From positions 1 through 37,445 of the forward strand of contig SVHZ01000018.1 of NCBI GenBank assembly GCA_015055525.1: a DNA stretch of 37,445 nucleotides, given 5' to 3'. Source of the DNA: Clostridiales bacterium (GTDB taxonomy: Bacteria > Bacillota > Clostridia > Christensenellales > Borkfalkiaceae). This document shows positions 18,800-26,550 of this stretch, in pieces. Every line of letters starts with the position of its first letter. The first letter of the stretch is position 1. The notes beneath the pieces were generated by a model. The model had not been told where the DNA came from and did not search any database. It was given only the letters and a program-made list of their open reading frames with translations. The position numbers and the translations under genes are program-made.

Positions 18800-19540
18800 A
18801 TGAAAGGCGTAGTTTTTTCAATTGAAGAGTTTTCAGTTTTTGACGGACCCGGCATACGTTCTACGGTATTTTTAAAAGGATGCCCATTGGCGTGCGAGTG
18901 GTGTCATAATCCTGAAGGGCAAGGTTTCGGCATTGAAACTTTTAATGCAAAGGTAATAGGTAAAGAATATTCAATAGATGAACTTTGTTCAAAACTGCTA
19001 AAAAATGCAGACATTTTTAGTTTTAGCGGTGGCGGAGTTACTTTTTCAGGTGGCGAACCGCTCATGCAAAGTGAATTTTTAATTGGGTGTTTAAAAAATC
19101 TAAACGGCAAGGTAAATAGAGCTATCCAAACATCTGGCTATGCAAGCGAAAGAATTTTTTCATCTGTTTTAGAGCATTGTGATTACATTCTTTACGATTT
19201 AAAAATTATTGATTGTGACTTACATAAAAAATATACAGGAAAATCTAACGAAACAATTTTAAAAAACTATCTTACCCTTGTTAATAGTGGCGTTAATTTT
19301 ACAACAAGAGTACCACTCATTCCAACAGTTACAGACACGAAGGAAAATCTAACTAAAATTGCAAACTTGCTTGCTTTTAACAATGTTAAAAAAGTTGAGC
19401 TATTACCTTATAACAAAATGGCGGGCGGTAAATATAAATTGGTTGGAAAAACTTATTTACCAAGTTTTGATGGTAATATTGAACCAAATCCCAGAACTGA
19501 AGCATTTGAAAATTTAGGTATAAGCGTTAAAATTATGTGA
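18800..19540 (+). CDS. Glycyl radical enzyme activating enzyme (radical SAM)
   Basis: 246 aa; 'FSVFDGPGIRSTVFLKGCPLACEWCHNPEG' (CX3CX2C), 'SGGGVTFSGGEPL'; directly upstream of a GRE gene. Confidence 0.93.
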   Translation: MKGVVFSIEEFSVFDGPGIRSTVFLKGCPLACEWCHNPEGQGFGIETFNAKVIGKEYSIDELCSKLLKNADIFSFSGGGVTFSGGEPLMQSEFLIGCLKNLNGKVNRAIQTSGYASERIFSSVLEHCDYILYDLKIIDCDLHKKYTGKSNETILKNYLTLVNSGVNFTTRVPLIPTVTDTKENLTKIANLLAFNNVKKVELLPYNKMAGGKYKLVGKTYLPSFDGNIEPNPRTEAFENLGISVKIM

Positions 19541-19547
19541 GGATTAT

Positions 19548-21497
19548 ATGATTGAAAAAGTAAAACTATTATTAGACGATTTAAACTCTAAAAAATATCA
19601 AACTCTAAGAAAACCTTGCGCCGTTATACCTGAAACTTTTGAAGAGAGAATAGAAAAAGACGTGCCCCTACTTTTTGAAAACGATGATTTTGGATTCAAT
19701 CGTGGTATCGCAGTAAAACTAAGGGGTGGTGTTGGCAACGTTACTCCTAACTACTATTCGGTTTTAAGTAAAGGTTTTGATTTGATTATTAAAAATATTG
19801 AAACTGCTATGAAAAACGAAAGCGATAACAAAAAAATTGAGTATGGCAAAACTACTATTTGCAAATTAGCACTTTGCATAAAAAAGTGCGATGAATACTG
19901 CGAATATGCAAAAAATACGGGCAACATTAAACTGTATAACGCATTGAAAAATATTCCAAGAAAACCTGCTAAAAATTTATATGAAGCGTTGGTTTTTATT
20001 AAACTTTGCGTGTATTTTCTTCGTTGGCATAGCTTTGACCATTTAGGTTTTGGTAGGTTTGATAAAATGTTATATCCTTTTTATCTACAAGAAAAAAACA
20101 GCGGCGTTAGCGATGAAGATATACTTTCTTTGATTGAAGAGTTCTTTATCTCTATTAACCGTGACGTTGATTTATACGCAGGCGTTCAAATGGGAGATAA
20201 CGGACAATCAATAGTTTTTGGTGGCGTTGATGAATATGGAAACAACGATTTTAATGAACTAAGTAACATTTGTTTAGACGCTTCTTATGAACTATCAATT
20301 ATTGAACCTAAAATAAATTTAAGAGTAAATAAAAACACACCATTAGAAATTTATGAAAAAGCAACTCTTTTAACAAAGCAAGGCCTGGGATTCCCTCAAT
20401 ATTGTAACGACGACGTTATAATAAACGGGCTTACTAAACTTGGTTATGATAAAAAAGACGCAGTAAATTATAGCGTTGCGGCTTGCTGGGAGTTTCTTAT
20501 CCCTGGGCTAAGCGCAGAAATATTAAATACGGGAAAGTTTAATTTTCCGTTAGTTGTAAACAATGCCGTGCATAAATATTTGCTAATTGAAGATTCTTTT
20601 GATGATTTTTTACAAAGGGTTAAAAATGAAATTATTTGCGAGTGCGATAGGATAAGAAAGGAAAAAGAAGGATTAAGAATAAACGACTGCCACCTACTTT
20701 CAGTATTTATTGACGGTTGTGCCGAAAATTTAAAGGATATGTGGTGCGGTGGCGCAAAGTATAAAAATTTTGGTTGCCACGGTATAGGAATTGCCAATGC
20801 AACCGACGCGCTTGCTGCAATTAAGCATAGAGTCTATGAAGAAAAATCTATTTCAAAACAGCGCTTAATTGATGCACTTAACGCTAATTTTAATGGCTAC
20901 GAACACGAAAGAAACCTTTTGCTTTCATCGCCAAAGATGGGAAATAACGACGATTATGCCGATAGTTTATCCTTAGAGATAATGCAAACGTTTTCCGATA
21001 ATATGAACAATAAACCAACGCCGTGGGGTGGTGTTTGGCGAGCTGGCACCGGGTCTGCGCACGAGTATTATTATAGCGCGATACACTGCCCTGCAACGAG
21101 CGATGGCAGAAAGGCTTACGATTACTTTTCATCTAGTTTTTCACCATCACTTGGAGTTAAAACGGAAGGAATATTATCAGTAATAAAATCGTTTACTAAA
21201 TACGATTTATCAAACATAATAAACGGCGGACCATTGACTATTGAAGTTCACAATTCAACTTTGCGTAATGAGGAAGGAATTAAAAAAATGGCTGCATTAG
21301 TAAAATATTTCATAGATAACGGCGGACATCAACTTCAATTAAATTCCGTTAATAAAGAAACGTTAAAAGATGCGCAAATTCACCCTGAAAAATACCCCAA
21401 CTTAATTGTTAGGGTTTGGGGCTGGAGCGGATATTTTATTGAACTTGACAAATTGTATCAAGACCACGTTATAAGTAGGCTTGAATATACTTTATAG
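19548..21497 (+). CDS. Glycyl radical enzyme (PFL/diol-dehydratase-like superfamily), substrate unknown
   Basis: 649 aa; thiyl-Cys region 'VAACWEFLIPG' (Cys313, C-x-E) and glycyl-radical loop 'LIVRVWGWSGYFIELDKLYQDHVISRLEYTL' (Gly625). Confidence 0.9.
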   Translation: MIEKVKLLLDDLNSKKYQTLRKPCAVIPETFEERIEKDVPLLFENDDFGFNRGIAVKLRGGVGNVTPNYYSVLSKGFDLIIKNIETAMKNESDNKKIEYGKTTICKLALCIKKCDEYCEYAKNTGNIKLYNALKNIPRKPAKNLYEALVFIKLCVYFLRWHSFDHLGFGRFDKMLYPFYLQEKNSGVSDEDILSLIEEFFISINRDVDLYAGVQMGDNGQSIVFGGVDEYGNNDFNELSNICLDASYELSIIEPKINLRVNKNTPLEIYEKATLLTKQGLGFPQYCNDDVIINGLTKLGYDKKDAVNYSVAACWEFLIPGLSAEILNTGKFNFPLVVNNAVHKYLLIEDSFDDFLQRVKNEIICECDRIRKEKEGLRINDCHLLSVFIDGCAENLKDMWCGGAKYKNFGCHGIGIANATDALAAIKHRVYEEKSISKQRLIDALNANFNGYEHERNLLLSSPKMGNNDDYADSLSLEIMQTFSDNMNNKPTPWGGVWRAGTGSAHEYYYSAIHCPATSDGRKAYDYFSSSFSPSLGVKTEGILSVIKSFTKYDLSNIINGGPLTIEVHNSTLRNEEGIKKMAALVKYFIDNGGHQLQLNSVNKETLKDAQIHPEKYPNLIVRVWGWSGYFIELDKLYQDHVISRLEYTL

Positions 21498-23583: not shown

Positions 23584-23628
23584 AAAAACTCCGCAATTAG
23601 CGGAGTTTTGAGTGGAGCGGGAAACGGG
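23584..23628. repeat. Imperfect direct-repeat copy B: terminator hairpin + 3' end of intact tRNA-Gly
   Basis: aaaaactccgcaattagcggagttttgagtggagcgggaaacggg; hairpin AACTCCGC-TAATT-GCGGAGTT on the minus strand is the likely tRNA terminator. Confidence 0.85.
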
Positions 23629-23688
23629 ACTCGAACCCGCGACAACTGCCTTGGCAAGGCAGTGCTCTACCAACTGAGCTACTCCCGC
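23613..23688 (-). tRNA. tRNA-Gly(GCC)
   Basis: GCGGGAGTAGCTCAGTTGGTAGAGCACTGCCTTGCCAAGGCAGTTGTCGCGGGTTCGAGTCCCGTTTCCCGCTCCA; cloverleaf, anticodon GCC, encoded CCA. Confidence 0.97.
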
Positions 23689-23761
23689 ATTTTCGAAAAC
23701 AAACCGGCCTGCTCAAGCCAACTCATCCCCGAAATGCCTTTTATTCTCTTTCTGAGAAAAG

Positions 23762-23837
23762 TGGTGGGAGTTACAGGGCTCGAACCTGTGACCCTCTGCT
23801 TGTAAGGCAGATGCTCTCCCAGCTGAGCTAAACTCCC
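23762..23837 (-). tRNA. tRNA-Val(UAC)
   Basis: GGGAGTTTAGCTCAGCTGGGAGAGCATCTGCCTTACAAGCAGAGGGTCACAGGTTCGAGCCCTGTAACTCCCACCA; anticodon TAC, encoded CCA. Confidence 0.97.
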
Positions 23838-23957: not shown

Positions 23958-23986
23958 TTGAAATTAAACAATCATTGTGATATAAT
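23958..23986 (+). promoter_or_regulatory. Putative extended -10 sigma-A promoter of the TIR operon (TTGAAA - 17 nt - TATAAT, TGn extension)
   Basis: ttgaaattaaacaatcattgtgatataat upstream of ATG 24017. Confidence 0.7.
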
Positions 23987-24016: not shown

Positions 24017-25591
24017 ATGCCAATTTTTGAAAATTTTATTAGTTATAGACGAAAAGAAACTCTGCTTGAAGTAAAAAATATTTATGACGCTCTAAAAAAT
24101 CGCGGATTTTCAACTTTTTGTGACGTATACACGTTAGACAACGGAAACTTTGATGACAATTTAGTTAAATTTGTTAAAAATTGCACTAATTACATTTTAG
24201 TTATTAACAACAACTCTTTAGATAGGTGCTCTGAAGAAGGAGATTGGCTGTTACGCGAGATTAAACTAGCTCTAAGTAACAATAAAAACATTGTAATAGT
24301 TTTTGTTGGCAACGTTGACTTTAATAACCTACCAGATGAAATAAATGAATTACGCTATAAAAACGGCTTAAAATTTGATACGATTTATTTTGATTCGTTT
24401 GTAGACGAATTGGTTAAACGATTTTTAGTTAAAAGTGAAGACTGGGAAAAATCGTCAGAGAATGATTTTTTAATTGAAGGCACTAAACTTATTAAATATC
24501 AAGGAAATGCACGCCAAGTTATTATTCCATTAGAAATAGAAACCATAGGTTGCTCCGCTTTCAAGGATAACACTTCAATAAAAGAGATTATTTTTAACAA
24601 TAAGTTAAAAATAATTGAAGAATCAGCATTTGAACGCTGTCTTTCGTTATCACACATTGAATTACCTAAAGACGTTAAAATACTTGAAACTCGAGCATTT
24701 GCTCGTTGTTATAGCTTATTAAACGTTACACTAAACGACAACTTAACAACCATTGAAGACGAGTGCTTTGCATTTTGTTCTAACTTAAAACATTTTACTC
24801 TTTCTCAAGGTGTAACTATTTGTAAAGAATCGGCATTTAACCATTGTTCTCTACTTACACAATTTGTAGTCGAAGATGGAAACAAGAGTTTTTCAACCAT
24901 TGAAGGAATATTATATAACTACGATCAAAGCGCGTTGTTAAGATGCCCCACTAATTACACAAAAAATTGCATAATAATTCCTTCAACCATTAACACGATA
25001 GGAAATTACTCTTTTTATAAATGCAGTGAAATCAAAGACGTAATTTTACCCGAATCTACAACAAAAATAGGCGAATACGCATTTGCCGACTGCCGAAACA
25101 TAAGCTATTTATGTTTACCTAGCGAAATAAATGAAATATCAGAAACGTCATTTTTAGGTTGGGAATCAAGCCAAATTATAAATTTTGAAAAAATTAAAAA
25201 TGATGACGTTAAGTCAATTATAGAAAAGTTTACAAATCACACTTCTACAACTGATAACTTAGGCGTAAATTCAGAATATATTCTAGTAAAAACAACTTTC
25301 GAATCCGAACACGAAGCCATAGATATGGCAAAGGGATTATTAGGGAAACACTTAATAACGTCTGGGCAAATTTCAAAATTAAGATCAATATATACATGGG
25401 AAAATAAATTTTGTGACGAAAACGAGTATGAACTTTCTTGTATAACAAGGGGTGAAATGTATTCCGATATAGAAAAATTTATCCACTCTCACCATTCGTA
25501 CGATTTATGCGAACTTATGGTTATCCCTATCGCTCACGTTCCTCAAAATTTTGGAGATTGGGTAACCGATTATATTAAGGAGAAAAAATAA
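24017..25591 (+). CDS. TIR domain - BspA-like LRR (LRR_5) - CutA domain fusion protein
   Basis: 524 aa. TIR: 'FENFISYRRKETLLEVKNIYDALKNRGFSTFCDVYTLDNGNFDDNLVKFVKNCTNYILVINNNSLDRC..DWLLREIKLAL'; repeats such as 'LKIIEESAFERCLSLSHIELPKDVKILETRAFARCYSL'; C-terminus 'YILVKTTFESEHEAIDMAKGLLGKHLITSGQISKLRSIYTWENKFCDENEYELSCITRGEMYSDIEKFIHSHHSYDLCELMVIPI' aligns by eye to CutA. Confidence 0.88.
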   Translation: MPIFENFISYRRKETLLEVKNIYDALKNRGFSTFCDVYTLDNGNFDDNLVKFVKNCTNYILVINNNSLDRCSEEGDWLLREIKLALSNNKNIVIVFVGNVDFNNLPDEINELRYKNGLKFDTIYFDSFVDELVKRFLVKSEDWEKSSENDFLIEGTKLIKYQGNARQVIIPLEIETIGCSAFKDNTSIKEIIFNNKLKIIEESAFERCLSLSHIELPKDVKILETRAFARCYSLLNVTLNDNLTTIEDECFAFCSNLKHFTLSQGVTICKESAFNHCSLLTQFVVEDGNKSFSTIEGILYNYDQSALLRCPTNYTKNCIIIPSTINTIGNYSFYKCSEIKDVILPESTTKIGEYAFADCRNISYLCLPSEINEISETSFLGWESSQIINFEKIKNDDVKSIIEKFTNHTSTTDNLGVNSEYILVKTTFESEHEAIDMAKGLLGKHLITSGQISKLRSIYTWENKFCDENEYELSCITRGEMYSDIEKFIHSHHSYDLCELMVIPIAHVPQNFGDWVTDYIKEKK

Positions 25592-25869
25592 TGATAGGAA
25601 TAGTTGGAAATCTATTGATCAAATATTCAATCGAAAATAAAACTTATTGTGATACGGTCAATATGATATATCAAAAAGAATTTAGCCTCACAGGATGCCC
25701 TGCAATTAAATTTACAATTGATGAAATAACTTATATTGAAGATACAATTTACGGCGTTGAGATTTCATTTGAAGATGAAGATTGGTACGTAAGCGGAAAC
25801 GAACCTACTACTTTTCAAATTGAAAAATATAATATTTCGGGAACAATTGAATTATCATTTTTAAATTAG
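25591..25869 (+). CDS. Hypothetical 92-aa protein in TIR-CutA operon
   Basis: TAATG overlap with upstream stop; AAGGAG Shine-Dalgarno 8 nt upstream; acidic C-terminal half; no family recognised. Confidence 0.75.
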   Translation: MIGIVGNLLIKYSIENKTYCDTVNMIYQKEFSLTGCPAIKFTIDEITYIEDTIYGVEISFEDEDWYVSGNEPTTFQIEKYNISGTIELSFLN

Positions 25870-25878
25870 GAGTTAATT

Positions 25879-26193
25879 ATGGATAATAATTATTGTGTTA
25901 TAATAACAACAACAAATGAAAACAACGCTAAAATTTTAGCCGACAATTTAGTAGTAAACAAACTTGCAGCATGCGTTCAAATGATTAAGATGAATAGCGT
26001 TTACGAGTGGGAAGGCAAAATATGCCACGATGACGAAGTGCTTATGCTTATTAAAACTCGCTCTAAATTGTTTGATGATTGCTGTAAATCAATTAAATCA
26101 TTACACGATTACGACGTTCCTGAAATAATTAAACTAAATATTGACGACGGCAATGAGGAGTATTTAAAATGGATTTCAACCCAAACAAAATAA
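25879..26193 (+). CDS. cutA: CutA-family protein (PII-like trimer fold)
   Basis: 104 aa; 'CVIITTTNENNAKILADNLVVNKLAACVQMIKMNSVYEWEGKICHDDEVLMLIKTR...LHDYDVPEIIKLNIDDGNEEYLKWI'; AGGAG upstream. Confidence 0.95.
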   Translation: MDNNYCVIITTTNENNAKILADNLVVNKLAACVQMIKMNSVYEWEGKICHDDEVLMLIKTRSKLFDDCCKSIKSLHDYDVPEIIKLNIDDGNEEYLKWISTQTK

Positions 26194-26507
26194 CAGAATA
26201 TAAAATTGAAGTTTTTGTTCCCGTAGAATCAAAAGACGTAGTCTTAAATGCAATTAAAAGCTTAAACGTTGGAGTAATTGGAAACTACTACAACTGTATT
26301 TCATGCACAAACGTAATTTCTTCTTGGGATTCCAACCAATACGCTAATCCATTTTTAGGCGAAAAAGGACAAAGTTTTCAAACTGATGAAATAAAAATAG
26401 AAACTAGATGCTCAAAAGAAAAAATACATCACTTAATTGAAAAAATAAAATCAGTCCACCCTTATGAGTCAGTCTGCATAAACGTTATACCAATTTTATC
26501 AATCTAA
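26169..26507 (+). CDS. COG3323/YqfO-insert-like (NIF3-associated PII-like) protein
   Basis: 112 aa; 'YKIEVFVPVESKDVVLNAIKSLNVGVIGNYYNCISCTNVISSW...NPFLGEKGQ...EIKIETRC...VHPYESVCINVIPI' matches the stand-alone YqfO-type domain; GAGGAG at 26155-26160 within cutA. Confidence 0.85.
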   Translation: MDFNPNKITEYKIEVFVPVESKDVVLNAIKSLNVGVIGNYYNCISCTNVISSWDSNQYANPFLGEKGQSFQTDEIKIETRCSKEKIHHLIEKIKSVHPYESVCINVIPILSI

Positions 26508-26520
26508 TTCATATAATAAT

Positions 26521-26550
26521 AAAAAATGCACGGTTTCCGTGCATTTTTTT
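26521..26550. terminator. Bidirectional intrinsic terminator between TIR operon and recG
   Basis: AAAAAATGCACGG-TTT-CCGTGCATTTTTTT. Confidence 0.9.

Follow-up and report, generated by a model that had tools for sequence, protein, structure and literature searches.

A TIR-LRR-CutA protein encoded with a free CutA: a candidate partner-controlled TIR effector in Clostridia

The window analysed here is the whole 37,445-nucleotide stretch of contig SVHZ01000018.1 from a Clostridiales gut bacterium, and it carries a run of four genes that form one tight operon (Table 1). The arrangement given in the preliminary description, four genes on one strand with two overlaps and a single 9-nt gap, was reproduced: genes 1 and 2 overlap by 1 nt, genes 2 and 3 are separated by 9 nt, and genes 3 and 4 overlap by 25 nt. 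The placement of the operon between a promoter and a terminator likewise held, both signals being predicted from the DNA. All four genes are coding-like by codon use; gene 2 had a codon-use score of 0.048, while the highest of 1000 shuffles reached -0.029, which rules out a non-coding open reading frame. Each gene is preceded by a Shine-Dalgarno-like match, the weakest being that of gene 1 (-4.2 kcal/mol, against -9.2, -6.8 and -8.9 kcal/mol for genes 2 to 4). The G+C content of the operon (0.28-0.32) is lower than that of recG and most other neighbours (0.33-0.41).

Table 1. Features of the operon in window coordinates; L033 and L077 are the two related loci described in the text.
Feature	Position	Strand	Basis or remark
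Promoter-like site TTGAAA-17-TATAAT, extended -10	23958..23986	+	11/12 consensus; 30 nt ahead of gene 1 ATG; predicted
Gene 1, TIR-LRR-CutA, 524 aa	24017..25591	+	Pfam domains; orthologues in L033 and L077
CutA-family tail within gene 1	25262..25588	+	Derived: I[TV]S in place of AAC, C in place of P, I/F in place of K
Gene 2, 92-aa protein without detectable family	25591..25869	+	Coding by codon use
Gene 3, stand-alone canonical CutA, 104 aa	25879..26193	+	Pfam CutA1
Gene 4, stand-alone COG3323/YqfO-insert type protein, 112 aa, HPYE motif	26169..26507	+	NIF3-insert match
Bidirectional terminator, common to operon and convergent recG	26521..26549		Predicted from sequence

The gene 1 product consists of a TIR domain (residues about 6-137), a BspA-type LRR region (about 150-410) and a CutA-family tail (about 415-524). 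Pfam assigns TIR_2 to residues 7-101, LRR_5 from residue 162 and CutA1 to residues 423-518 (E 6e-21), and the tail scores 74.5 bits against CutA1 (PF03091), over the curated cut-off of 22.4. A profile of the tail retrieves many CutA proteins among solved structures, the best being 1uku (E 6e-14). The solved structures nearest to the TIR domain are SARM1 and tir-1 (E 7.7e-17). The SARM1 motif DWVHKE, whose last residue is the catalytic E642, aligns with DWLLRE of gene 1, so that E81 occupies the position of the catalytic glutamate, and the BB-loop glycine aligns as well. The same W-x-x-x-E glutamate is kept in both relatives described below, as D-W-L-x-x-E, and NAD+ cleavage is a predicted activity of this domain. 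There is no extension N-terminal of the TIR domain that could serve as a signal peptide. The AlphaFold model is confident for the LRR solenoid (most blocks 80-95), moderate for the TIR domain and poor for the CutA tail (pLDDT about 35), the last because the alignment contained three sequences only.

Gene 3 is a typical CutA (Pfam CutA1, E 3e-35). Gene 4 has a partial Pfam CutA1 match barely above the cut-off and matches NIF3 proteins over their PII-like insert (2gx8 residues 163-260, E 7e-12); with its length and the motif KSVHPYES it fits the stand-alone YqfO-insert proteins of COG3323 / DUF34 subgroup D-E, as that class is defined in PMC8469502. COG3323 and CutA share a CutA/PII-like domain type, and the three CutA/PII-like products of the earlier count come from genes 1, 3 and 4. 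Gene 2 matched no family and no credible relative, two matches spanning 37 and 20 residues, and its AlphaFold model is strand-rich at low confidence (pLDDT 43.5).

Two further proteins with the same TIR-LRR-CutA architecture were found, one in horse-gut Clostridia (locus L033, genome G522, JAKSRG010000035.1) and one in an uncultured Acetatifactor of the Lachnospiraceae (L077), with 46% and 41% identity to gene 1, respectively; one member of this set of three is cut at its 5' end. JAKSRG010000035.1 was the one additional fusion in a class-wide search of 388 genomes. It and L077 came from a contig scan with two exact short peptide patterns, and because such a scan has low recall, more members probably exist. 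With the tail profile, at thresholds of 1e-8 and 1e-6 that divergent free CutAs can escape, no further member was found in the G522 order (188 genomes), the L077 family (397 genomes) or the L077 genus (138 genomes), and the class and phylum samples contained no other long CutA fusion.

In all three cases (3/3) a free CutA gene follows the fusion gene on the same strand. It starts 10 nt downstream of the fusion in L033 and 11 nt downstream in L077; in the window the two are separated by the 92-aa gene. Ribosome binding weaker for gene 1 than for CutA, as predicted in the window, does not hold in L033. The third gene varies: it encodes the COG3323 protein in the window, a 149-aa zinc-ribbon protein at L033 and a protein with two TIRs at L077. 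Homology of the zinc-ribbon protein with the gene 2 product was considered and is unsupported (E 0.13). Neither COG3323 nor the 92-aa gene was found beside the fusion in L033 or in L077, the latter being a short contig, and none of roughly 45 CutA or COG3323 loci compared had CutA and COG3323 genes within about 1.5 kb of each other.

Since both relatives have the free CutA 10-11 nt downstream, we read TIR-LRR-CutA plus CutA as the conserved unit. The four-gene set with its three CutA/PII-like products is, by the same comparison, a local elaboration of this two-gene core, because COG3323 and the 92-aa gene are unconserved in the two relatives and CutA and COG3323 lie apart elsewhere. The linkage proposed in the preliminary description therefore stands for CutA, in three lineages, and fails for COG3323 and the 92-aa gene; COG3323 drops out as a conserved component, and the three CutA-type products do not constitute one conserved set.

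The idea that all four genes form one system, with the COG3323 and 92-aa proteins as obligate regulators, draws on the tight spacing, overlaps and common terminator in the window and on the CutA/PII-like domain type of COG3323; given that both genes are missing from the two relatives (one of them a short contig) and that CutA and COG3323 are unlinked in the loci compared, we consider it improbable.

In L033 the fusion lies directly 3' of a large serine recombinase gene. A MobA/MobL relaxase is encoded upstream, and the downstream stretch carries macro-domain genes and additional TIR genes. On that stretch, past the cassette, a gene for a zinc-ribbon/TIR protein sits between two macro-domain genes that are nearly identical, the first being truncated (L033 12814-13158, 15295-16464 and 16490-17002). 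In L077 the gene after CutA (1792-2581) encodes two TIR-like domains, one of them ThsB-like, and its reading frame appears shifted near 2309, by error or decay.

The fused and free CutA domains differ consistently. The three tails group as a single clade (100/100) in a tree of 38 CutA sequences, with a long stem of 2.2 changes per site. Compared with most free CutAs, all three have I/[TV]/S in place of A30/A31/C32, I/F in place of K59, C in place of P81 and F-G in place of Y95-L96, so that the canonical AAC, K59 and P81 are absent from the gene 1 tail. The tails retain L29, S40, Y42, W44, E53, H76, Y78 and W98. Apart from a few exceptions, the partner CutAs retain the canonical residues. They form no clear clade, the window partner standing apart from the other two, and long co-evolution with the tail is therefore unsupported by the tree. 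Such an asymmetry would suit a pair in which one chain serves regulation or docking and the other is ligand-competent.

Several observations indicate that the operon was acquired. PF03091 matches occur in only 1 of 201 same-family genomes, that of the window, and all three matches are inside the operon; a housekeeping role for this CutA is ruled out, as the rest of the family has none. We recovered recG in eight same-genus genomes, most of which, where enough flank was available, have the tRNA pair beside it (an MFS gene follows in L087). In four of these relatives (L087, L088, L092 and L094) about 85-250 nt separate recG from the tRNA pair, with no operon in between, and the pair is inverted in two of the four; in L089 a different gene occupies the site, and in L093 prmA adjoins recG. 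The tRNA-Gly/tRNA-Val pair (window 23613-23837) has the opposite orientation in L087, L088 and L089, three close relatives, and the site has therefore been rearranged. Because the site is variable and same-genus genomes lack the operon there, the operon is best regarded as an insertion and as an acquired accessory cassette. Binning contamination is unlikely, recG and a downstream dak-type gene being syntenic in same-genus genomes. Phage and plasmid sequences gave only LRR or unrelated CutA matches, and no relative of the tail was found in viral contigs.

The notion of a defence island at the window locus was not borne out, the neighbours being recG, tRNA genes, a PPTase gene and an MFS gene. 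Further away in the window (18800-21497), genes for a radical-SAM activase and its paired glycyl radical enzyme, next to those for an AraC-type regulator and an MFS transporter, probably make up an anaerobic catabolic operon. The whole 1.53-Mb genome (G000) encodes nine TIR domains, at loci such as L070 2887-5208 and 5219-6121 (contig C10), L072 3577-5256 (C27), L074 3452-6181 (C4) and L075 3884-5272 (C3). By sequence reading these proteins include a TIR-FtsK look-alike, a TIR-LRR protein that lacks CutA, and two further TIR proteins, one with tetratricopeptide-like repeats and the other with an acetyltransferase-like C-terminus.

Conserved pairing in three lineages and an accessory cassette fit the regulatory partnership suggested in the preliminary description, in which small CutA-fold proteins act on the TIR effector; this part carries over to the free CutA, while the role given to COG3323 does not. 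The reading we prefer, at a probability of about 0.45, is a TIR NADase immune effector controlled through its CutA tail by the free CutA, with restraint by mixed trimers. Gene 1 would be a SARM1-type TIR enzyme of the cytosol, predicted to cleave NAD+, with the LRR solenoid as a likely recognition or spacer part and the C-terminal domain as the trimerisation element by which the tail would enter CutA-type trimers. With gene 3 CutA in excess, mixed trimers would each contain at most one TIR and stay quiet. An infection signal, sensed either by the LRR or in the ligand cleft of CutA, might then cause trimer exchange or rearrangement, bringing several TIRs together so that NAD+ would be consumed and the infected cell stopped. 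The COG3323 and 92-aa proteins would be local additions, perhaps modulators. We infer the NADase activity, the mixed trimers, the direction of restraint, the trigger and the defence role. The more specific formulation, a bacterial TIR NADase switched by subunit exchange, in which the make-up and ligand of mixed trimers of fused and free CutA would set TIR clustering, we put forward tentatively, as possible but doubtful.

Restraint by mixed trimers is our first choice, and activation by a ligand-loaded CutA comes second. In the latter, the free CutA would be an activator or ligand carrier that binds an infection-linked metabolite or metal, docks on the tail and triggers the TIR. The partner's canonical residues, several of which the tail has lost, would suit such a role, and in het-B the PII-like protein triggers rather than inhibits (PMC10890737). 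A constant, tight operonic pairing is, however, equally expected of a toxin with its inhibitor; the sequences fit either direction, and we regard activation as a rather doubtful though serious candidate. It is unlikely, in our judgement, that the module is non-immune, serving as a metabolic or metal/redox-stress regulator whose TIR is tuned by CutA ligands, or in gut host interaction. CutA and DUF34/COG3323 have long been tied to metals or small-molecule signalling (PMC8469502), BspA-type LRRs are frequent in gut bacteria and gave many matches in our searches, and the window neighbours are housekeeping genes. Set against this, the patchy presence, the variable insertion site and the mobilisable stretch of L033 with its further TIR and macro genes resemble a defence cassette, and gene 1 leaves no room before the TIR for a signal peptide. 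The derived tail, fused to an effector, is also reminiscent of integrated decoys and might be bait for an invader factor that attacks CutA or PII-like proteins; yet the host family has no CutA outside the operon, hence nothing to guard, and phage records lack a CutA of their own, the three matches being bacterial-looking cutA genes, two of them in Salmonella contigs. We hold a decoy to be very improbable.

The function of CutA, a widespread protein, is unsettled, and a conserved pairing of CutA with a CutA-tailed, SARM1-like TIR offers it a concrete, testable partner. Within the CutA1 family (PF03091) gene 3 is typical, and the gene 1 tail differs in being fused and in having lost several canonical residues. 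No TIR defence protein with a CutA domain was found in PADLOC, NCBIfam or the literature searched, nor was a description of TIR-LRR-CutA with CutA, which may exist elsewhere; the sole paper relevant by its title was PMC10890737. As the free CutA adjoins the CutA-tailed TIR in all three known cases, the module suggests an on/off switch of a bacterial immune protein that is undescribed in that literature. If the subunit-exchange formulation is correct, it would provide a trimer-titration switch for immunity together with a biological role for CutA.

Among known systems, Thoeris and other bacterial TIR defences likewise place a TIR effector or synthase in accessory cassettes, but the matches of gene 1 to ThsB are weak (E 2e-7), and the window operon contains no ThsA-type effector and no SIR2, SLOG, macro or other effector. 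SARM1 and TIR-1, the nearest TIRs by sequence among solved structures, with aligned catalytic glutamate and BB-loop glycine, are TIRs controlled by oligomerisation; gene 1 differs in being bacterial and in having LRR and CutA regions and no ARM or SAM domain, and its activity is predicted from sequence. The nearest analogue of the module as a whole is, by analogy of arrangement, fungal het-B (Bh/Bp) of Podospora anserina, in which the trigger of a TIR-like HET effector is a PII-like protein encoded next to it; 89 PII-like/HET gene pairs are reported in fungi (PMC10890737). In both, the gene for a TIR-like effector of cell death, predicted in the case of gene 1, neighbours one for a small protein of a trimeric type, PII-like in the fungus, and the C-terminal part of the het-B effector is thought to receive the partner. 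The fungal partner, however, is of the PII-like BP family rather than a CutA, the effector has a lectin fold and no fused CutA, and het-B works as an allorecognition trigger in which the small protein triggers rather than restrains, whereas the window shows adjacency only. If our reading is correct, it would show in bacteria, too, a connection of TIR-like death effectors with PII-like proteins, for which fungal allorecognition is so far the known case.
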